Assembly: GCF_030530745.1 (NCBI RefSeq)
Contig: NZ_JAUMUI010000002.1
Coordinates: 3,729 to 67,728, forward strand
Source of the DNA: Neisseria sp.
GTDB taxonomy: Bacteria > Pseudomonadota > Gammaproteobacteria > Burkholderiales > Neisseriaceae
Direction of reading: 5' to 3'
DNA: 64,000 nucleotides
Part shown: one piece after another, positions 44,223 to 55,819 of the stretch
How the letters are laid out: each line of letters starts with the position of its first letter
Position numbering within the stretch: position 1 is the first letter of the stretch
Notes under the pieces: model-generated
What the model saw: only the letters and a program-made list of their open reading frames with translations
The model's database searches: none
Told to the model about the DNA's origin: nothing
Position numbers and translations under genes: made by a program

Positions 44223-44299
44223 TGGTCGGAGTGAAAGGATTCGAACCTTCGACCCCTTGCACCCCATGCAAGTGCGCTACCAGACTGCGCCACACTCCG
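44223..44299 (-). tRNA. tRNA-Pro (anticodon GGG)
   Basis: 77 nt including an encoded CCA. The acceptor stem is CGGAGTG/CACTCCG with discriminator A. The D arm is GCGC/GCGC. The anticodon stem CTTGC/GCAAG has loop ATGGGGT, placing U33 before GGG. The T arm holds TTCGAAT. It closely resembles the proline GGG isoacceptor of E. coli. Confidence 0.95.
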
Positions 44300-45021: not shown

Positions 45022-47388
45022 TTAACGCCTCAGTTGCGCACCTGCACTTTCAGCGGCGTATTCCACCAGTTTTTCGATTAAAGGCTCCACCGCATCATCG
45101 GTCAGCGTGGCCTCATGATCTTGCAGCACCACCTTCACCGCCATGCTTTTCGTCCCTTCCGGCAGCCCTGCCCCGCGGTAAACGTCGAACACGCTGATTT
45201 CTTGAACCAATTTGCTCTTCATCCCCCACAAAGCGGCCAGCAGCGTATCATGCGTTACCTCTTCGGGCAGCACAAACGCCAGATCGCGGCGTACGGGCTG
45301 GAATTTGGATACGGGGCGGTAAACGGTTTTTTTCCTGCCCAGCACGGCGGCCATGTCGATTTCAAACACCAGCGCGGCTTGCGGCAGGCCGTATTTTTGC
45401 AGCCATTGCGGGTGCAGCTCGCCGATAAAGCCGACGGCATGGCCGTCCATCACGATTTCGGCGGTACGGCCGGGGTGCAGCGCGGGATGTTCGGCCTTTA
45501 CGAACGACACGTTTTTACCGCCCAGCAGGGCTTCGACATCGCCTTTCACATCGTAAAAATCGGCCGCACGGATTTTCCCGCCCCATTGCTCGGGATCGGC
45601 GGAGCCGTAAACCAGGCCGCCGATGTGTTCGTTTTGCACGAAACGGCCGTCCGAACCTTTGTTGAACACGCGGGCGATTTCAAACACGCGCACGCGGTTT
45701 TGTTTGCGGTTGAGGTTGTTTTGCAGGATTTCCACCAAACCGCCGATCAGGGTGGAACGCATCACACTGTATTGCGCCGCCAGCGGGTTTTTCAGGCGGA
45801 CGGGGTCTTCGTTGGCGGCGAAATCGCGCTCCCATTGCTCGTCAACGAAGGCATAGCTCACCACCTCCTGATAGCCGCGCGCCGCCATTTGATTGTAAAC
45901 AGCGAAGCGGCTGCGGCGGGTTTCGGGCAGCGCCAACATTTTCAGACGGCCTGAGGTGTGGTCATCGGGAATGTTGTCATAGCCGTAGACGCGGGCGATT
46001 TCTTCGATTAAATCGGCTTCGATTTCGATGTCGTAACGGAAGCTCGGCGACGTGGTTTGCAGGCCGTCTGAAACTTTTTTCGGTTGCAGACCCAAGGCGG
46101 CCAGAATAGTTTTTATCCGTTCTTCATCAATTTTCACGCCCAGCAGCTTTTCCACCCGCGCCGTGCGCACGGCTACGGTTTTGCGTTCGGGCAGCCTGCC
46201 TGCCGCTTCAACGATTTCGCCTGCCGCGCCGCCGCAAATCTGCAATACCAGTTCGCTGGCGCGCTCGACGGCGTCGCGCTGCAATTCAAAGTCCACGCCG
46301 CGCTCGAAGCGGAAGGAAGAGTCCGAACCGAAGCCGTATTGGCGCGATTTGCCGGCGATGATTTCCGGCGCGAACCAAGCCGCTTCCAGCACGATGTTTT
46401 TGGTGCCGTCTGAAACCGCGCTGGCCGCGCCGCCCATCAGCCCGGCCATGCTCAATGTGCCTTGTTCGTCGGCCACCACCAAGGTGTTGTCGGCCAGGGT
46501 AACGGTTTTTTCGTTCAGGCATTCCAGCGTTTCGCCGTTTTCGGCGCGGCGCACAATCAGGCTGCCTGAAAGTTTGTCGGCATCAAAAACGTGCATCGGC
46601 TGGCCGAGTTCCAGCATCACATAATTGCCGATGTCCACCAGCGCGGAAATGCTGCGCACGCCGCTGCGTTCCAGCCGCTGCTTCATCCACGCGGGCGTGG
46701 CCGCCTGCGCGTCCACGTTTTCAATCACGCGGCTGATAAAGCGGCCGCAGTCGGCAGGCGCGTCAATGCGTACGGGCTGTATTTTCGCGCTGCCCACCGA
46801 GGCCGTCTGAATGTCAGGCTGCCTGAACGCGCAGCCCGTGAGTGCCGCTACTTCGCGCGCCAAACCCTTGATGCTCAAACAGTCGGCACGGTTGGGCGTG
46901 ATTTTCAGGGTAAAAACGGTGTCGTCCAAATCCAGATAGTCGCGCAGGTTTTGCCCCACGGGCGCATCGGCGCTCAGGATGTGCAGGCCGTCCACGCCGT
47001 CGTCGGGCAGGCCCAACTCGTCGGTGGAACACAGCATACCGCCCGATTCCACGCCGCGCATTTTGGTGGGCTTGATTTTGAAACCGCCCGGCAACACCGC
47101 ACCCGGCAAGGCACACGGCACTTTGATGCCGGCACGCACATTCGGTGCACCGCAAACGATTTGAATCAGCCCGCCGGTGCCGGCATCGACTTGGGTAACG
47201 TTCAGGCGGTCTGCATCGGGGTGTTTTTCCACCGATTTCACTTCCGCCACCACTACATTAGAGAAAGCAGGCGCGGCGGGTTCGGTTTCTTCCACCTCCA
47301 AACCGGCCATGGTTAACAGGTGCGCCAGTTCGTCGGCGGAAAGATTGGGATGGGCTTGGGTGTTCAGCCAGGAATAGGGGAATTGCAT
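45022..47388 (-). CDS. pheT: Phenylalanyl-tRNA synthetase beta subunit
   Basis: 788 residues. It begins MQFPYSWLNTQAHPNLSADEL, with an EMAP/tRNA-binding fold, the B3/B4 editing domain, B5 (KVSDGLQTTSPSFRYDIEIEADLIEEIARVYGYDNIP), the catalytic-like core and the C-terminal anticodon-binding ferredoxin domain. It forms the alpha2-beta2 enzyme with PheS, yet pheS lies 3.5 kb upstream because accessory genes are inserted between them. The gene contains both AG-DUS and two exact copies of the foreign dialect AGGCTGCCTGAA (46559-46570 and 46816-46827). Confidence 0.97.
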   Translation of the reverse strand: MQFPYSWLNTQAHPNLSADELAHLLTMAGLEVEETEPAAPAFSNVVVAEVKSVEKHPDADRLNVTQVDAGTGGLIQIVCGAPNVRAGIKVPCALPGAVLPGGFKIKPTKMRGVESGGMLCSTDELGLPDDGVDGLHILSADAPVGQNLRDYLDLDDTVFTLKITPNRADCLSIKGLAREVAALTGCAFRQPDIQTASVGSAKIQPVRIDAPADCGRFISRVIENVDAQAATPAWMKQRLERSGVRSISALVDIGNYVMLELGQPMHVFDADKLSGSLIVRRAENGETLECLNEKTVTLADNTLVVADEQGTLSMAGLMGGAASAVSDGTKNIVLEAAWFAPEIIAGKSRQYGFGSDSSFRFERGVDFELQRDAVERASELVLQICGGAAGEIVEAAGRLPERKTVAVRTARVEKLLGVKIDEERIKTILAALGLQPKKVSDGLQTTSPSFRYDIEIEADLIEEIARVYGYDNIPDDHTSGRLKMLALPETRRSRFAVYNQMAARGYQEVVSYAFVDEQWERDFAANEDPVRLKNPLAAQYSVMRSTLIGGLVEILQNNLNRKQNRVRVFEIARVFNKGSDGRFVQNEHIGGLVYGSADPEQWGGKIRAADFYDVKGDVEALLGGKNVSFVKAEHPALHPGRTAEIVMDGHAVGFIGELHPQWLQKYGLPQAALVFEIDMAAVLGRKKTVYRPVSKFQPVRRDLAFVLPEEVTHDTLLAALWGMKSKLVQEISVFDVYRGAGLPEGTKSMAVKVVLQDHEATLTDDAVEPLIEKLVEYAAESAGAQLRR

Positions 47389-47472
47389 GGTTATTGATCT
47401 ATCAAAATTAAAGGTTATTCACAGGTAATCAACCAGTTTCTAGGAAATTTGAGTTAAGAGGATAATGGCAGT

Positions 47473-47808
47473 CTATTTATATATTTTTAATATATTTTTC
47501 AACGCCATAATGGAATGGAAAATATGGTTTCTCGGAAAGCTATTACTTTCGTAATCCTTTAATTCATCTTTTTCAAGATAATCTATAACTAATTTTAAAT
47601 GTTCTACATATTCATCAGGTAATGAAATCTTGGACATTAAACCATTGTAAGGAAAGAAACCTTGGAAAATCAAATCATCGGAGTCAAGCACTATTTCCCC
47701 ATGCTTACACATTTCTTTTGCTTTATCAATTGCACTAGATACAGTTTCCGCTTCGATGATTATGTTACGACTCAGGATCTCTTTAACTTCAACTTCAAAC
47801 AATTCCAT
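47473..47808 (-). CDS. dpnD: DpnD/PcfM-like protein
   Basis: 111 residues from the ATG at 47808; a TTG 21 nt earlier overlaps the end of drg. The N-terminal 45 residues (MELFEVEVKEILSRNIIIEAETVSSAIDKA...) match the DpnD-PcfM pattern. DpnD is the partner gene of DpnI in pneumococcus, of unknown function. The remaining 65 residues are not recognised. The gene is distinctly AT-rich against its neighbours, a sign of foreign origin. It lies directly behind the DpnI-like gene, repeating the dpnC-dpnD order. Confidence 0.75.
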   Translation of the reverse strand: MELFEVEVKEILSRNIIIEAETVSSAIDKAKEMCKHGEIVLDSDDLIFQGFFPYNGLMSKISLPDEYVEHLKLVIDYLEKDELKDYESNSFPRNHIFHSIMALKNILKIYK

Positions 47809-47825
47809 TTTCACTTTCTCTTTTA

Positions 47826-48599
47826 TCAAATGGCCAGTTTCCGATACTGCCCACGGGCGGAAAACTCGATTACATTTTGATCACGCAAAATCTGCAACTG
47901 CTGGCGGATTTTATCCTTAACATGATTATTTTCAGGAAATTGAATCGACAATTGTTTTTCAAATCCATATACCTGTTGCAAATTAAATTGCTCAGGTAGC
48001 CTTTCGATGCATTTCATAATGGCTAGCAGCCATCCTTTATTGGCTGCTTTTTGCTTTCTTAAAAACAGGCTCGTTTTCCATTGTTCGTGTACCCGTTCGG
48101 GTTCAATCATCCGGGCTTGCTCAACCAATAAGATTTTACCGCTTTCAGGCAGTGTGCCGATGTTTATCGTGCAACCAACCCAGCCTGCCCGTTTTGCGGT
48201 TTCAGGCAAAGGTTTGCGGCGGGCAATCATATCGGCGGTCATAAAATGCTTGGGTACCAGCATGAGCTGCTGCACGGAATAATCGGCTTTGCTGTACGAC
48301 AGGAAAAAGAAATTGGGGTTGTCGTCGGCCTGAATCCGCTCCATCATGGTTTGGTATGCGCCATCATTAACGGTTTTCCCTGTTGATTTCCCCTGTTTGC
48401 TTTTCAGTTCGAATTGTTCGTTGCAGTGGGAACACAGAAAATCTTGTACGGGGCGGTTGTTCGGTGCTTTACTTATCGGTTTGCAGCCGCAATTCGGACA
48501 ATACACATTTGCCCCCATCCAGTTTTCAGTCAAAACACGGACAATTTGAGCAGCATTTTTATAACCCTCTGCCAAGCATGTATCGAAATACAAGTTCAC
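47826..48599 (-). CDS. drg: DpnI-like restriction endonuclease (dam-replacing gene product)
   Basis: 257 residues from a GTG start at 48599, giving MNLYFDTCLAEGYKN and an alignment in register with DpnI. The PD-(D/E)xK catalytic residues fall at Asp53, Glu64 and Lys66 (ELK). A zinc site is formed by Cys34, Cys37, Cys56 and Cys59. The C-terminal winged helix (DKIRQQLQILRDQNVIEFSARGQYRKL) senses methyl-adenine in the family. The enzyme should cleave GATC methylated on A, so the cell must lack active Dam. It overlaps the truncated dam gene by 4 nt (GTGA). It is the 'dam-replacing gene' known from meningococci and gonococci. Confidence 0.92.
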   Translation of the reverse strand: MNLYFDTCLAEGYKNAAQIVRVLTENWMGANVYCPNCGCKPISKAPNNRPVQDFLCSHCNEQFELKSKQGKSTGKTVNDGAYQTMMERIQADDNPNFFFLSYSKADYSVQQLMLVPKHFMTADMIARRKPLPETAKRAGWVGCTINIGTLPESGKILLVEQARMIEPERVHEQWKTSLFLRKQKAANKGWLLAIMKCIERLPEQFNLQQVYGFEKQLSIQFPENNHVKDKIRQQLQILRDQNVIEFSARGQYRKLAI

Positions 48600-49207
48600 T
48601 GCACGAAACCTTTCGCATACGACGTAAACGATGCGGTTTCGCTCAGCGGCACATAAGGCGGATCGCAATAGACCACATCGTCATCACCTGCCTGATTTAA
48701 GGCTGCCTGAAAATCACCGCACATCAATTCGATGCGCTCGGACTTGTCAGCAAAGGCTTGCATTTCCGTTGCGGGAAAATAAGGGGCGCTGTAACGGCCA
48801 AAGGGAACGTTAAACATGCCTTTGCTGTTGTAGCGGCACAAGCCGTTAAAGGCATGTCGGTTCAAATAAACAAACAAGGCAGAACGCTCGGCAATATTGC
48901 GGCTGTGGTTGAATTGTTCGCGCAGCTCGTAAAAGCGGGCTTCCTGATTATTTTCAGAAATAAAAAACGAACGGGCATATTCTATGAACGATTGCTTTTC
49001 CTGTTTTAATGTCCGGAAAAGGCCAATCAAATCAGGATTGGTGTCGTTTAACAGATAGGCATCAAAGTCCAAAGCCAGCGATAAGGCAGCTGATCCCGCA
49101 AACGGCTCAATCAAGCGCTTGCAGGGATTTTGGGGCATATGGGCGGCAATAAACGGCGCCAGTTTGGCTTTGCCGCCTGCCCATTTCAGAAAAGGTTTAT
49201 TTGACAT
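48596..49207 (-). pseudogene. dam: Dam adenine methyltransferase, C-terminally truncated
   Basis: 203 codons against about 270 in full Dam. The N-terminal FLKWAGGKAKL (SAM motif X), IEPFAGSAAL (motif I) and catalytic DPPY (182-185) are intact and in frame. Translation stops 18 residues after DPPY, exactly where drg begins, so motifs V-VIII of the alpha-class enzyme are missing. It is probably inactive. It overlaps the MNT gene by 22 nt at its 5' end and drg by 4 nt at its 3' end. An AGGCTGCCTGAA uptake sequence lies inside it (48700-48711). The open frame may be recent or retained for another use. Confidence 0.8.
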
Positions 49208-49539
49208 GGTGGGTACTTTATTTTCAGGCAGCCTGAAAGGTTTCTGGCCGTCTGTATCACGTAATGCTGTTGTTGGATGATTTTCCTAAACTCTTCACTG
49301 ATCAACTGCCAGTCGGCAATATCCACTTTCCAAGGCAGGTCGGATTCGGAAAAGGCTTCCGTCAAAGCGGCGTGTTCGGCCAGGGTCAGGGCTTGCGGTG
49401 CGATAACGGCCAGATCCAAATCGGAATAGGGTTTGGCCGTGCCCGTTACCCGCGAGCCGAATGCCCATACGGTGTAATCGGGGATGTGTCGGCGCAGAAT
49501 CTGTTTGACGGTCTGCAAATGTCCGGCTGCAATATCCAT
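49186..49539 (-). CDS. MNT-type nucleotidyltransferase (antitoxin)
   Basis: 117 residues. The minimal nucleotidyltransferase signature GSRVTGTAKPYSDLDLAV (GS-x10-DxD) lies at about residues 28-45, and the third carboxylate is in VDIADWQ. In MntA/HepT-type systems the enzyme AMPylates and neutralises the HEPN toxin. It starts directly after the HEPN stop codon (TGAATG). The last 20 or so residues (after YVIQTARN) look like run-on sequence through an uptake-sequence hairpin into the start of dam, so the C-terminus is probably altered by insertion. Confidence 0.85.
   Translation of the reverse strand: MDIAAGHLQTVKQILRRHIPDYTVWAFGSRVTGTAKPYSDLDLAVIAPQALTLAEHAALTEAFSESDLPWKVDIADWQLISEEFRKIIQQQHYVIQTARNLSGCLKIKYPPCQINLF
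49223..49237. repeat. Foreign-dialect uptake sequence palindrome
   Basis: TTCAGGCAGCCTGAA contains AGGCAGCCTGAA (Kingella-type dialect) on one strand and AGGCTGCCTGAA (Simonsiella-type) on the other. It lies within the 3' end of the MNT gene. Confidence 0.7.
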
Positions 49540-49950
49540 TCAGTTTCCCAGTCTGCGGTTAAGCATATCCCGTAAAAACACGGCTTCGGCGAGAAATTGT
49601 TCAATGCCGCCCACCACGGCCAGAACGGTTTTTTCGTCATAAGTATGGCTGGTGCGGCTGCGCATATCGCAATACTGCCGCCAATCCGACCAGTCGCCGC
49701 GCAGCAAGCCCTGCTCGTTGGCAGTGCGGATCAGGTCTTGGAAGGTCATCGCATCAATCTCGGCAGGATTGGCGGAAGCGTGTTCCAAATACCGCTTCAA
49801 TATTTTATGGGCGATTTCGTAGGTAAATTCAAAACGCTGAATCAGGCCGTCGCGGATTTGGGTGTCGGAAACGTCTTTCAGGTAGCGTTCCCAACCCTCC
49901 TGCAAACGGGCAACGGCATTGGTCAGGGGCTGGATGGATAATGTCTGCAT
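49540..49950 (-). CDS. HEPN-domain protein (toxin), HI0074/HepT-like
   Basis: 136-residue all-helical protein of the nucleotidyltransferase substrate-binding/HEPN family. The RNase-type motif R-x4-H is in MRSRTSHTYDE. Typical segments are RDGLIQRFEFTYEIAHKILKRYLE and FQDLIRTANEQGLL. Together with the adjoining MNT gene it forms a two-gene toxin-antitoxin or AMPylation-controlled defence pair. The toxin-like gene comes first, as in HI0074-HI0073. A foreign-dialect uptake palindrome lies just upstream of it. Confidence 0.87.
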   Translation of the reverse strand: MQTLSIQPLTNAVARLQEGWERYLKDVSDTQIRDGLIQRFEFTYEIAHKILKRYLEHASANPAEIDAMTFQDLIRTANEQGLLRGDWSDWRQYCDMRSRTSHTYDEKTVLAVVGGIEQFLAEAVFLRDMLNRRLGN

Positions 49951-49963
49951 GGGAATTCCGGTT

Positions 49964-49978
49964 TTCAGGCAGCCTGAA
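49964..49978. repeat. Foreign-dialect uptake sequence palindrome
   Basis: A second exact TTCAGGCAGCCTGAA, between the HEPN gene and the frameshifted gene. The MNT-HEPN pair is thus bracketed by two identical palindromes about 740 bp apart. Confidence 0.75.
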
Positions 49979-49980
49979 CA

Positions 49981-50270
49981 TTAAAAGAAGATTGAAATCA
50001 AACCATAAGCACACAGCGTGCAGACTAGCAAAACAACATTTTCCCATTTGTTGCGGAATGGCGCGCAGCCGCTGCCGGTTACCGTGCAGGCCAACCCGCC
50101 CAAAAAGCGTATTGCGCGCGCTCCAGCCATCTTTCTGCCAAAACCAAGTATCCGCCATTGCCCGATTTAAAATCAAAATACTGCGCGGCACGGGTTTCAA
50201 AACAAGCCTGCAATATCAGGCAGGCTAAGGCGGTACCGTAACCGATCAGCATGAAATGTGTTCTGTTCAC
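49981..50270 (-). pseudogene. Frameshifted small membrane protein
   Basis: The first frame (GTG at 50270, or ATG at 50252) encodes a hydrophobic start MLIGYGTALACLILQACF and ends prematurely at 50079. Shifting one frame at the run CTTTTTGGG (about 50098-50107) continues as LGGLACTVTGSGCAPFRNK and a second hydrophobic helix to a stop at 49981. One extra T would give a two-helix protein of about 96 residues. It may be a mutation, a phase-variable tract or an assembly error. The family is not recognised. Confidence 0.5.
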
Positions 50271-50367
50271 CGTTCAGGCCGTCTGAAAACTGATTCATAT
50301 TGCTTCAAAACCCGCATCATGATTAAAACAGCCGTCAAAAATATTGATGCGGTTCCATTTTCAGCCG

Positions 50368-50907
50368 TCAGCAGCCTGCTTCACCAAACAGGCCGCCGGA
50401 GTGCGGATTCATGCCGCGCTCATGTTCCAGCAGCCATTGTTTGCGCTGCAAACCGCCGCCGTAACCCATGAGGCTGCCGTCCGCACCGATTACGCGGTGG
50501 CACGGGATAATGACCGATACGCGGTTCTGCCCGTTGGCATTGGCGACCGCCCGCACGGCGGAAGGTTTGCCGATCCGTTCGGCCTGCTCTTGATAGCTGA
50601 CGGTTGTGCCGTACGGAATCTGTTGCAGTGCCGCCCAAACGGCTGCCTGAAACGGCGTGGACGGCGTATGCAGCGCCACCTCAAACTGCCGCCGTATTCC
50701 GGCAAAATATTCGCGCAGCTCGGCTTCTGCCTGTTCCAGATGCCGGTTTGTTCCGGCAGCCAACCGCCGCTTGAGCAAACGCTGCAAATCCCGCTGTTCC
50801 CGCTCAACCCGCCTGCTGCCGACAAATTCCAGCAGACACAAGCCCTGCTCGGTGGCACAGGCAACCATACCGCCCAAAGGGCTGTGAAAACAGTGGGTGT
50901 AAATCAT
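50368..50907 (-). CDS. ogt: Methylated-DNA-protein-cysteine methyltransferase
   Basis: 179 residues from the ATG at 50907; a TTG at 50937 is also possible, and neither has a strong RBS. The active-site PCHRVI with nucleophilic Cys, the helix-turn-helix GTTVSYQEQAERIGKPSAVRAV with the Arg finger, and GSLMGYGGGLQRKQWLL are all present. The N-terminal domain is the short Ogt-type. It removes alkyl groups from O6-guanine and O4-thymine. It lies just downstream of pheS and may be part of the pheS-pheT accessory island. Confidence 0.92.
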   Translation of the reverse strand: MIYTHCFHSPLGGMVACATEQGLCLLEFVGSRRVEREQRDLQRLLKRRLAAGTNRHLEQAEAELREYFAGIRRQFEVALHTPSTPFQAAVWAALQQIPYGTTVSYQEQAERIGKPSAVRAVANANGQNRVSVIIPCHRVIGADGSLMGYGGGLQRKQWLLEHERGMNPHSGGLFGEAGC

Positions 50908-50939
50908 TTTGGCGGGACGTCCGAAGGCCGTCTGCAAAC

Positions 50940-52645
<1,706 letters not shown>

Positions 52646-55600
52646 ATGTCAAACCAAATCATCCTCACCGTTATCCCGACGAAAGGTGCATCAACTGCCG
52701 GACGGACCGCCCGTTTCAATGTAAATGCCGGTTCCGGCCAAGCCTTGCACATACAGGCAGCCGCACTCTCTGATTACCAGCTTGCCGACGCCGCCACCGG
52801 CCTTGCCCCTGAAAATCTGGAATTTACCCGTATGGGCGACAATCTGCATATCCGCAGCAAAGCTTCTGCTTCCGGCCGTCCCGATATCGTAATCGAAAAC
52901 TACTATGCCCATAACGGCAATATCAAAGGTTTGCAGGCAGACGGATCGTCGGCCGCCTATGACGGAAAAATCCCTGCCAAGCCCTTGGCAGCCGAACAAG
53001 TAACCGTACACCAAAGCGGCGCCGGCAACGGCGTAAACAAACTGGCCGTAACTTTGGGCGGCTTGGCGGGAGTGGGCCTGCTCGGCGCATTGGCAGGCGG
53101 CGGAGGCGGGGGCGGAAGCAGCACCAACCCGTCTCCGACCGCTGTGGCAACCCAAAGCAATGCATCTTCGACAGCCGCACAAACTGCCGCTTCGTCTGCC
53201 AATACAGCCACCACTCCCAAAACCACGGCAACAGCCGCTCAAACCGCATCTTCAAACTCTGCCGTACAAACAAATACTGCAACAGAAACTGCTTCCGTTT
53301 CTATTGCAGAAGAAGCCGAGGAAACAGCAGATGCCGCACCCGTCAGCACAACTGATCCCGAATCCGCAGGCACGCCGTCTGAAACCGTTTCCGCTGCCGC
53401 CAAAGACAGCGGACAAAAAACGGCTGATACTGCAACTGCAATCTCATCCGGCGGCACTACCGTATCCGATGCGCAAAGCACCGCACCCGGCAGCACAACT
53501 GTGCCCGAACCCGCAGGCATGCCGTCTGAAACCGTTTCCGCTTCCGGCAAAGAAAGCGGACAAAAAACGGCTGATACGGCAACCTCATCCGGCAACACTG
53601 CCGTAACGGCAGATACCGTTGCAAACAACAATAATCCGGCAAATGATTCAACAGCAGCAACCTCCCCGACCGGGGCTGTTTCAACAAACTCTGCCGCCAC
53701 AGTTTCAGACGGCCCAACCGCAACGCAAAACGGCTACCGTGTATATGAACACCCGCAATACGGAAAATATATCGATGCCACCGAATTCGGCACCGATCCG
53801 AGCGGCCAAACCGACAGCCTTGCCGCTATCAACGCCGCTTTGGCTGCGGCCCATCTGGAAAACGCCGCCGTATATTTGAGCGGCAGCCTGTATATTTCAG
53901 ATCAAATTATATTGAACGAAACCAATTCCGGCGTAACCGGCCTGTTTGGCGACGGCATGGGTAAAACCACTATTTCGTTCGACAAAGAGCAAACCGGCGT
54001 GTTCAACCCCAACAGCAACGAAGACGACATCCGTGCTTTCGCCGGCATCCTTATCGACGGCCAAAGCAACAAAACCATTGCCGAGCTGTCGGTGAAATAT
54101 ACCAATCCCGATTTTTACCGTAAGGGTCTGAGCTATTTCGGCAAGGTTAGCGGTATTCTGGTAAACGATGCCGACAATACCCTCATCAGCAAAGTAGAAG
54201 TATCCGGAGCCAACCGTGCCGGTGTGTATTTCACCTCTACCAAAACCCTGACATCCGATCCCGAAAGCCCCCAAGGCCGTACCTATAAAGCCCGCCTGAT
54301 CCGCGGCGAAGTAGATGAAACCTACGAAAGCCTGCCCTTGGGTGAAAACAACCGCATCGTCGACAGCAATCTGCACCACAACCGTGTGGCCGGTGTATTG
54401 GTTTCTTACCAGAAAAACTTTGTGGCCGACAACAACACCATGTCGTGGAACGGCCACGAAGCCGACGGCGGCACCGGTTACGGCATCGCCAGCATGGCAG
54501 GCAGCTACAACTTCGGCATCACCTTTACCAACAACAAAACCGATCACAACTACCGCAAAGGTTTGGATGTGCACGACGGCGACAACATCGTGATTGAAAA
54601 CAACACCTCAAACGGCGACCGCCTCAACGGCATTGCCGTGTATAACCGCCAATTCACGATGGATACGGTGAAAATCAGCAATAACACCATCATTGCCGAT
54701 CCGAACTTCCGCTTGGAACAAGACGACGATTTGGGAAGCCGCTACCACGGTTATGCGGGCATTCAAATCCAAACCAACACCATGAACCGCGATTTGCGCA
54801 GCAGCGATACCGGCCATTTTGAAATCAGCAACAACACTGTTTCAAATCTGGATGTTTACCAAAATGCCATACAGACATACGGCATCGAGTTCCGCAACCA
54901 TGAACCGCACATGCACTACACGCTCGACATTACCGGCAACACTATCGAAGGCGAATCCTCGAAATATGCCATTGCTATTATCAACAACACAAAAAACAAT
55001 ACCTTAGGCACAAACGGCGAAGGATCGGGCACCATCAACATTCTGAACAACAACATCGACATCGGCAGCATCCTCAAAGGCGCCATGCCCATCTTTATTA
55101 TCGAAGAGAGCAACAGCGGCCAACTGCGCGGCGAAGTTACCGTATCGGGCAACAGTCTGACCATTCGCGAAGCATCCGACGGCACCATTGAAGGCGTTCA
55201 AATGGTGGGCAATGCCGAAACCTACCGCGTTACCGACAACACCTTTGAAATCCACGGCACCATGGACAAACCCGTTGTCAGCTTGCTCGGCCGCGCAGGC
55301 GGAGAGATTCCCGAACTGATTGTCAGCGGCAACGACATCACTACAGACTTGACCGGCAACCTCTACCGCAGCTGGATCGAACGCAATGCTGTTGTCGATG
55401 TTTATGCCGACAACAATACCCACAACGGTAAAGAGCTGGCAGAAGTGAAACATATCGTTTCTACTCCTGCTGCAGGCTATGCACCCGAAACTGCCGAAAC
55501 GGTTGAAACCGCCGAAACCGCCCACGTTTTAGATTTGGGCATCGGCAGCAACACCATATCGGGTACCGACTCCTACCAAACGGCATCCAAACAAACGGCA

Positions 55601-55819
55601 ACAGCCTCGGAAAATGCAGCAGAACTTTCCGGCCCGGCTTCAGGCAGCCTGTCGGCCCTGAACGATTTGCTTGCCGCTACCGAGTTGGATTTATCCTCCC
55701 TTTTAGGCAAAGAGAGTGGAGCGGGATTAGCCGTCGGCACTGCAGACACAAAATACGCACAATCTCTGAACATCAGTGAAGAACAGTGGCAAAGTGAAGT
55801 TTCCGCCCATATTGTGTAA
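52646..55819 (+). CDS. BapA-like N-terminus, right-handed beta-helix surface/secreted protein
   Basis: 1057 residues. Residues 1-105 resemble the BapA-type prefix of large type I-secreted adhesins (FTRMGDNLHIRSK ... DIVIENYYAHNGNIKGLQADG). A hydrophobic segment ending in seven Gly (132-157) follows. A Ser/Thr/Ala/Pro-rich linker (about 160-360) contains two direct repeats. Residues about 365-935 form a beta-helix of the pectate-lyase-3/C5-epimerase type, starting YIDATEFGTDPSGQTDSLAA and with repeated N-N-T ladders. GLDVHDG (639-645) recalls the DPHE catalytic motif of alginate epimerases. The C-terminus has Leu/Asp-rich text but no RTX repeats. I saw no cysteine. Function is unproven: adhesin or polysaccharide epimerase/lyase. 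Confidence 0.75.
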   Translation: MSNQIILTVIPTKGASTAGRTARFNVNAGSGQALHIQAAALSDYQLADAATGLAPENLEFTRMGDNLHIRSKASASGRPDIVIENYYAHNGNIKGLQADGSSAAYDGKIPAKPLAAEQVTVHQSGAGNGVNKLAVTLGGLAGVGLLGALAGGGGGGGSSTNPSPTAVATQSNASSTAAQTAASSANTATTPKTTATAAQTASSNSAVQTNTATETASVSIAEEAEETADAAPVSTTDPESAGTPSETVSAAAKDSGQKTADTATAISSGGTTVSDAQSTAPGSTTVPEPAGMPSETVSASGKESGQKTADTATSSGNTAVTADTVANNNNPANDSTAATSPTGAVSTNSAATVSDGPTATQNGYRVYEHPQYGKYIDATEFGTDPSGQTDSLAAINAALAAAHLENAAVYLSGSLYISDQIILNETNSGVTGLFGDGMGKTTISFDKEQTGVFNPNSNEDDIRAFAGILIDGQSNKTIAELSVKYTNPDFYRKGLSYFGKVSGILVNDADNTLISKVEVSGANRAGVYFTSTKTLTSDPESPQGRTYKARLIRGEVDETYESLPLGENNRIVDSNLHHNRVAGVLVSYQKNFVADNNTMSWNGHEADGGTGYGIASMAGSYNFGITFTNNKTDHNYRKGLDVHDGDNIVIENNTSNGDRLNGIAVYNRQFTMDTVKISNNTIIADPNFRLEQDDDLGSRYHGYAGIQIQTNTMNRDLRSSDTGHFEISNNTVSNLDVYQNAIQTYGIEFRNHEPHMHYTLDITGNTIEGESSKYAIAIINNTKNNTLGTNGEGSGTINILNNNIDIGSILKGAMPIFIIEESNSGQLRGEVTVSGNSLTIREASDGTIEGVQMVGNAETYRVTDNTFEIHGTMDKPVVSLLGRAGGEIPELIVSGNDITTDLTGNLYRSWIERNAVVDVYADNNTHNGKELAEVKHIVSTPAAGYAPETAETVETAETAHVLDLGIGSNTISGTDSYQTASKQTATASENAAELSGPASGSLSALNDLLAATELDLSSLLGKESGAGLAVGTADTKYAQSLNISEEQWQSEVSAHIV
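53344..53582 (+). repeat. Direct repeat in the linker of the beta-helix protein
   Basis: Two units of about 92 bp (53344-53435 and 53491-53582), 147 bp apart and in frame, each encode a variant of AG-PSETVSA-K-SGQKTADTAT. Each unit contains a GCCGTCTGAA uptake core, which encodes the PSE residues. Confidence 0.8.

Follow-up and report, generated by a model that had tools for sequence, protein, structure and literature searches.

Foreign DNA uptake sequence dialects at the pheS/pheT locus of a Neisseria genome: a probable mosaic minimal mobile element

The pheS/pheT site of Neisseria meningitidis harbours a minimal mobile element in which NmeDI and other type II restriction systems have been described (PMC7973814, PMC3082526; here and below, published work is cited from excerpts). 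This report deals with the same site in Neisseria sp. (assembly GCF_030530745.1), within a window of 64,000 nucleotides of contig NZ_JAUMUI010000002.1 to which all positions refer, and with the DNA uptake sequences (DUS) found there. Between 46559 and 55650 this AG-dialect genome carries a confirmed cluster of DUS of two other dialects, simDUS and kingDUS. The interval is probably a mosaic minimal mobile element at pheS/pheT, built by several imports that came through mixed-dialect intermediates from an unsampled donor. Elements of this kind are not known to carry mobility genes of their own.

Three further described systems are relevant to this locus. DUS dialects are described as efficient interspecies recombination barriers; a mismatch of dialect reduced transformation, not always to zero (Table 1 of the same work), and a kingDUS plasmid transformed N. 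meningitidis at 0.0002 of the AT-DUS rate (PMC3630211). The dyad formed by kingDUS and simDUS is reported as the commonest DUS arrangement in Simonsiella muelleri and is prevalent in Alysiella crassa and Kingella negevensis, and AG-king/simDUS dyad islands in N. gonorrhoeae and N. meningitidis are integrative and conjugative elements (ICEs) of about 30 kb situated just downstream of tRNA-Asn genes (PMC7371117). Finally, the meningococcal dam replacing gene, drg, inactivates dam and sits at the dam locus, intact dam and drg being mutually exclusive (PMC516771).

Exact search recovered all the motif positions reported in an earlier note on this DNA. In the window, simDUS AGGCTGCCTGAA lies on the plus strand at 46559, 46816 and 48700 and on the minus strand at 49223, 49964 and 55639, kingDUS AGGCAGCCTGAA on the plus strand at 49226, 49967 and 51719, and the palindromic king/sim dyad TTCAGGCAGCCTGAA at 49223 and 49964. 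AG-DUS AGGCCGTCTGAA occurs 64 times. The host genome (2,276,341 bp, 53 contigs) holds 23 sim, 23 king and 2134 AG-DUS sites and 11 dyads, and the sim and king patterns read backwards give no site genome-wide. The host motifs are classed as DUS from their sequence, the AG-DUS being abundant. The earlier note noticed no foreign-dialect site beyond the interval; this is correct for exact sim and king sites in the window, where none was found outside the cluster, and does not extend to the genome, which has 28 further foreign loci. Single sites of AGGCTACCTGAA (5389) and AGGTCGTCTGAA (24925), motifs of the dialects named eik and muc, and three AT-DUS (15267, 33692 and 53519) are also present in the window. 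A uniform genome-wide density, named beforehand as an argument against import, is not observed, since 9,092 bp contain 9 of the 46 foreign sites; when each dyad counts once, these are 7 loci out of 35. Under uniform placement, a null that takes no account of sim and king 12-mers arising by coding for Gly-Ser-Leu, the Poisson probability of seven loci in one interval of this size is 1.8e-10, and in 20,000 simulated draws such an interval never exceeded five loci.

The locus was compared with a family set of 84 genomes (given G numbers below), which may or may not include Kingella or Simonsiella. G020 is Neisseria dentiae, G066 Alysiella crassa, G082 Stenoxybacter acetivorans and G001 a Conchiformibius assembly, and three Neisseriaceae assemblies, G059, G062 and G065, come from ruminant stomachs. 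Twelve of the genomes contain between 201 and 2067 copies of the dyad (G001, G055, G058, G059, G060, G062, G064, G065, G066, G067, G082 and G083), and genomes of the host genus contain 0 to 34, the highest numbers being those of G016 (34) and G012 (32). With 3068 and 3951 AG-DUS, respectively, these two congeners are AG-dialect genomes with some dyads. The DUS slots of the interval, and their state in relatives, are the following:

46559..46570, plus strand: simDUS in pheT; absent from G019, G020 and G029, at the same place in G002, G066, G067 and G083.
46800..46827, plus strand: tandem of AG-DUS and simDUS, 4 bp apart, the simDUS (46816) following the AG-DUS; congener G016 has this tandem in the corresponding position.
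48700..48711, plus strand: simDUS in the truncated methylase gene dam'; the slot holds AG-DUS in 7 of 19 relatives, kingDUS in 3 of 19 (G066, G083 and congener G012) and neither in 9 of 19.
49223..49237, no strand assigned: king/sim dyad; G019 and G020 have an AG-DUS at equal offset (80 bp) from the aligned nucleotidyltransferase gene.
49964..49978, no strand assigned: king/sim dyad between a HEPN-type gene and a broken small gene; in G019 and G020 this slot between the genes is occupied by an AG-DUS.
50276..50287, plus strand: AG-DUS in the other border slot of the broken gene; G067 has a sim dyad there.
51719..51730, plus strand: kingDUS in pheS; AG-DUS in G019, G020 and G029.
55639..55650, minus strand: simDUS in a beta-helix gene; AG-DUS in G019, G020 and G029.

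Several of the foreign DUS occupy conserved DUS slots. The dam slot was aligned first for 15 relatives' loci and then for all 19; in this slot the AG-dialect congener G012 has a kingDUS where seven other relatives have an AG-DUS. G066, G067 and G083 bear the same dyad at the end of the broken small gene, and G083 shares 21 bases around 49964. For comparison, five of the six AG-DUS of 42.8-46.1 kb are exact AG-DUS in at least two of G019, G020 and G029, the sixth (42822) being so in G019 only.

The genes of the interval, read leftwards from pheS, are an ogt-like gene, the broken small gene, a HI0074/HEPN-type gene, a nucleotidyltransferase gene, dam', drg, a DpnD-like open reading frame (ORF) and pheT:

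45022..47388, minus strand: pheT (Pfam B3_4, tRNA_synthFbeta and FDX-ACB), analysed by DNA windows and trees.
47473..47829, minus strand: AT-rich (30% GC) ORF of 118 amino acids, DpnD/PcfM-like (PF14207, E 8.4e-11).
47826..48599, minus strand: drg, predicted DpnI-like methyl-directed restriction enzyme of 257 amino acids (PF06044, PF17726, PADLOC mREase_II).
48596..49207, minus strand: dam', D12 N6-adenine methyltransferase of 203 amino acids (PF02086, 1-199 of 253; TIGR00571).
49186-49539 and 49540-49950, minus strand: minimal nucleotidyltransferase and its HI0074/HEPN-type partner (PF01909, PF08780, TIGR01987).
49979..50270, minus strand: frameshifted remnant of a small gene that occurs next to pheS, most similar to the version of Alysiella and G083.
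50368..50937, minus strand: ogt-like methylated-DNA--protein-cysteine methyltransferase gene (TIGR00589, PF01035).
50940..51929, minus strand: pheS, mostly native, with an identity dip at 51.64-51.84 kb.
52646..55819, plus strand: right-handed beta-helix protein gene (PF13229).

The earlier note proposed that pheT and pheS came from a Simonsiella- or Kingella-type relative. For the whole genes this is not supported: both proteins are closest to N. dentiae and its sister genome G019. PheT is 88-89% identical to these two, against 63-74% in motif-rich genomes (73-74% in G066, in G067, in G083 and in the two genomes of Conchiformibius's group), and PheS 96%, against 87% in G002, G066, G067 and G083, 90% in G055 and 93% in a partial match in G001. 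Whole-gene import of either from a sim/king-rich genome was ruled out by protein and DNA identity, and in the searches made no intact gene of the interval had its best match in such a genome. In pheT, 45.3-46.37 kb is 91-96% identical to G019 at the DNA level, save 46.07-46.22 kb (78%); the pheS windows range from 85 to 96%. Against the best of G019 and G020 in 300-base windows, identity is 91-99% at 43.05-45.15 kb, 92-95% at 45.3-46.05 kb and 90-96% in pheS at 51.0-51.75 kb, with lower stretches of 82-89% at 45.0-45.45 and 45.9-46.35 kb. Identity switches within both genes. The 3' part of pheT (45022-46380) is native, and the 5' part (about 46380-47388) is more divergent and appears mosaic. 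At 46.5-46.95 kb the best matches shift from G019, G020 and G037 to G012 and G016, which match equally well or better; 46.95-47.25 kb is again nearest to G037, G019 and G020, and at 47.23-47.39 kb the matches again tend away from the N. dentiae clade. Fitted breakpoints in pheT varied with the comparison genome, partly reflecting variable regions, and none is claimed precisely.

Trees were built from 28 author-chosen rows of 58 for pheT, and G001 and G051 were omitted from pheS as partial. The agreement of pheS and pheT trees with kinship, which had been named as a finding against import, is largely observed, the 3' part of pheT grouping the window with G019, G020, G037 and G029 (support 98/97). 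The 5' part places it outside the N. dentiae clade as sister to G016, with weak support (71/92), and the pairing with G016 is rejected in the 3' part by the approximately unbiased (AU) test (p 1.4e-6). That the cluster marks imported DNA is supported, as are the identity of the palindrome with the published dyad and the closeness of the broken gene at 49979-50270 to the Alysiella-type version; the origin proposed in the note is supported only in part, pheT and pheS being mostly native and the tracts short and mixed.

The content of the island also differs from that of relatives. The comparison covered 60 pheS/pheT stretches (59 genomes), some of the stretches ending near the genes. Relatives differ from the window both in the distance between pheT and pheS and in what lies there. 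By blastn, neither 47.4-48.6 kb nor the ogt-like gene finds a match at the other loci. G019, G020, G037 and others likewise have the nucleotidyltransferase pair in the pheT-pheS gap, and among the loci compared the beta-helix gene is found at this place only in G019, G020, G029 and G054; an intergenic stretch of the window between pheS and the latter gene (52100-52645) is AT-rich, with 28.8% GC. Among the versions that adjoin pheS, those of Alysiella crassa, G067 and G083 are the nearest to the remnant small gene. Its two readable pieces match G083 in 27/59 and 18/35 residues, G067 in 24/59 and 15/25, and N. dentiae in 14/43 and 13/30. The family of this gene is present in 12 of the 84 genomes, with divergent versions beside pheS in the congeners G019, G020, G022, G027, G032, G037 and G054 and a weak match elsewhere in G012. 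An initial assignment of the match at 49962-50185 to a gene of Alysiella-type genomes only was dropped on account of these congener versions.

The dam' product ends after YAKGF, shortly past the DPPY motif, at 203 amino acids, most relatives having about 270. The GTG start of drg overlaps the dam' stop TGA in a GTGA junction, and drg may be translationally coupled to the truncated methylase gene. With many drg homologues the alignment begins only at residue 24 of the longer ORF. Across the 84 genomes, drg is present in 21 (E below 1e-80) and a close dam in 22 (E below 1e-50). The two occur together only in the host genome and in G082, in both with dam truncated beside drg; a DpnI-family drg is thus present here with a dam that is not intact, and co-occurrence only with a truncated dam agrees with the exclusion published for the meningococcus (PMC516771). 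A dam gene adjoining pheS, or between pheT and pheS, is also seen in G040 and G065. Drg would be expected to cut incoming Dam-methylated DNA; with Dam truncated, the GATC sites of the cell itself would stay unmethylated. The 118-residue DpnD/PcfM-like ORF has no match in PADLOC or NCBIfam. In the pneumococcal DpnI locus a DpnD-type gene also lies next to DpnI.

The mosaic minimal mobile element would have arisen as follows. The pheS/pheT hot spot would exchange whole-gene cassettes by natural transformation and homologous recombination in conserved flanks. DNA carrying sim and king DUS probably entered in more than one event, with crossovers within 5' pheT, within pheS and probably within the beta-helix gene. 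The carriers were probably AG-dialect Neisseria already holding some king/sim DUS, like G012 and G016. Such carriers are favoured because mixed DNA can enter by means of its own AG-DUS; an AG-type cell should take up pure king/sim DNA only poorly, given the rate published for kingDUS (PMC3630211).

Several observations weigh against this explanation. The 46559 site can be made by Gly-Ser-Leu codons. Nine of the 19 dam genes have neither dialect in the slot, and that of G016 has AG-DUS there. The slots at 49223 and 49964 were matched to G019 and G020 by position only, their surroundings not aligning. No donor for the swaps in pheS and in the beta-helix gene was found among the loci compared. 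Dips in identity without foreign DUS occur at 45.0-45.3 and 46.07-46.22 kb, and the native placement of 5' pheT is not rejected (AU p 0.23), so that this tract is suggestive only. Furthermore, the best sampled matches reach 80% of amino acids for dam', 78% for drg and 84% for 5' pheT, and the nucleotidyltransferase pair does not exceed 83% of DNA over 170 bp or more in the sampled genomes.

Part of the swaps could be in-place change. As an explanation of the whole cluster, drift or selection turning the host's AG-DUS into sim or king forms without import, for example through a tolerant ComP, is unlikely. Two base changes suffice for each swap, and those of pheS and the beta-helix gene lie within otherwise alignable native genes for which, as said, no donor tract was found. 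However, the intermediates expected of such a process are too few. At position 5, the one-step forms AGGCTGTCTGAA (16 sites) and AGGCAGTCTGAA (2 sites) total 18, fewer than the 46 double forms; at position 8, AGGCCGCCTGAA has at most 95 sites genome-wide, an upper bound obtained as 141 AGGCNNCCTGAA minus 46. Two independent steps from AG-DUS predict at most 0.7 sim and 0.1 king sites. With so few one-step forms, the sim and king sites are not AG-DUS mutated twice, and their origin as decayed AG-DUS was ruled out by these counts. Moreover, the sites are concentrated in one hot spot with altered gene content, and one-mismatch sim/king variants are not enriched in the interval, which has 4 of the window's 11, three of these four being offset readings of exact sites.

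Delivery by an ICE or phage, as in the gonococcal and meningococcal king/sim islands, is very improbable. The published islands bear the same dyads (PMC7371117), but no integrase, transposase, conjugation or phage family was found by Pfam in ten proteins of 43.0-58.6 kb or in two further island ORFs, and content varies gene by gene among relatives. Those islands are about 30 kb long and lie by tRNA-Asn, while the sole tRNA gene of 42-60 kb is a tRNA-Pro (44223-44299), 2.3 kb outside the interval. Slightly less credit still is due to the idea that a cell of Kingella, Simonsiella or Alysiella type donated the entire 9-kb block at once, together with pheT and pheS. The abundance of dyads in such genomes and the remnant gene of Alysiella/G083 type would agree with it, but the nearest relatives of PheT and PheS are in congeners, identity to G019 and G020 exceeds 90% over much of 45.3-46.4 kb and much of pheS, the beta-helix gene is seen at this place only in congeners and two AG-DUS lie inside the interval. 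Hardly worth entertaining is a chance clustering of Gly-Ser-Leu coding coincidences, for although several scattered single sites outside the window resemble such coding, as does 46559, the two full dyads, the slots shared with relatives and the clustering statistics speak against it.

Outside the window, 6 of the 28 foreign loci are inside a restriction, methylase/nuclease or CRISPR gene or no more than 50 bp away from one; the loci considered, from which the defence densities also come, were selected for their foreign DUS, and the uvrB locus is not counted as defence. The sites concerned are in cas4 of a type I-C CRISPR operon, in the overlap of a YhcG-type nuclease gene with a DNA methylase ORF, just before vsr (a dyad), in the gene for the HpaII-type endonuclease belonging to a C5-methylase system, and, as two dyads, within a type III res gene. 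The remaining loci are within or close to ordinary genes such as purL, valS, gcvP, carB, uvrB and alaS, or in ORFs for which Pfam gives no match. A defence island of the host (contig C7, 162000-181000), with one king and one sim DUS, combines cas genes of type I-C and a restriction gene resembling type III with a YhcG-type nuclease and a DNA methylase. The type III res gene is closest to that of G016 (81%), which lies about 5 kb from pheS in that genome. Its first dyad slot holds an exact dyad in G016 and G025, both of AG dialect, and an almost exact one in G064; its second holds a dyad in none of nine relatives. These observations suggest, without proving, that restriction genes travel with foreign tags. 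A tentative extension, at present rather less likely to be right than wrong, is that defence and restriction genes circulate in AG-dialect Neisseria keeping the tag dialect of their source genus, by way of mixed-dialect relays, and that foreign DUS are a sensitive tracer of very short imports across the dialect barrier, down to single slots in core genes.

A further dialect may exist in the same family. G061 and G063 belong to the same genus group (g8) as G059, G060, G062, G064 and G065. In 20 stretches of these two genomes (68,270 and 103,638 unmasked bp, respectively), the sequence AGTCTGCCGGAA and its own one-base shift are the two commonest 12-mers. It has 46 and 72 exact sites, on both strands. 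Their density is about 0.7 per kb, where base composition predicts 0.003-0.004, and 9 and 14 pairs of sites stand inverted no more than 60 bp apart. Only 32 of the 118 sites lie in ORFs of at least 100 codons, though such ORFs cover 86% of the sequence. In the same stretches, sim and king have 2 and 2 sites, and 7 and 7, and the other six published DUS motifs tested have none. AGTCTGCCGGAA was absent from eight stretches of other genomes checked, and none of the papers searched, for this strand only, has the string. Compared with simDUS it has two changed positions, of which one falls in the core: the aligned core reads CGG in place of the CTG that is described as common to all eight dialects (PMC3630211). 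From its sequence and distribution, AGTCTGCCGGAA looks like a candidate undescribed DUS dialect.

Native slots with another group's tag would mean that the dialect barrier leaks at a hot spot of gene exchange, and this hot spot carries restriction genes, which themselves limit gene flow. The locus suggests a simple test for relay species and short import tracts. As regards the closest known systems, the meningococcal pheS/pheT element (PMC7973814, PMC3082526) has the same site, variable cassettes between conserved genes and restriction-related cargo. Here the cargo is instead dam'-drg, the DpnD-like ORF, the nucleotidyltransferase pair, the broken gene and ogt, and foreign-dialect DUS stand in both cargo and flanks. 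With the dyad ICE islands (PMC7371117) the locus shares the dyad TTCAGGCAGCCTGAA, read as the footprint of import into a genome of another dialect; it differs in being a mosaic of 9 kb that lies within core genes and between them and has slots whose dialect is switched. The motifs are exactly the AG-, sim- and kingDUS of Frye et al. (PMC3630211), but here they are mixed at one locus of an AG-dialect genome. Finally, in contrast to the meningococcal drg (PMC516771), the present one is situated at pheS/pheT, the first three quarters of dam are kept, dam' and drg overlap by GTGA, and the DpnD-like ORF comes next.

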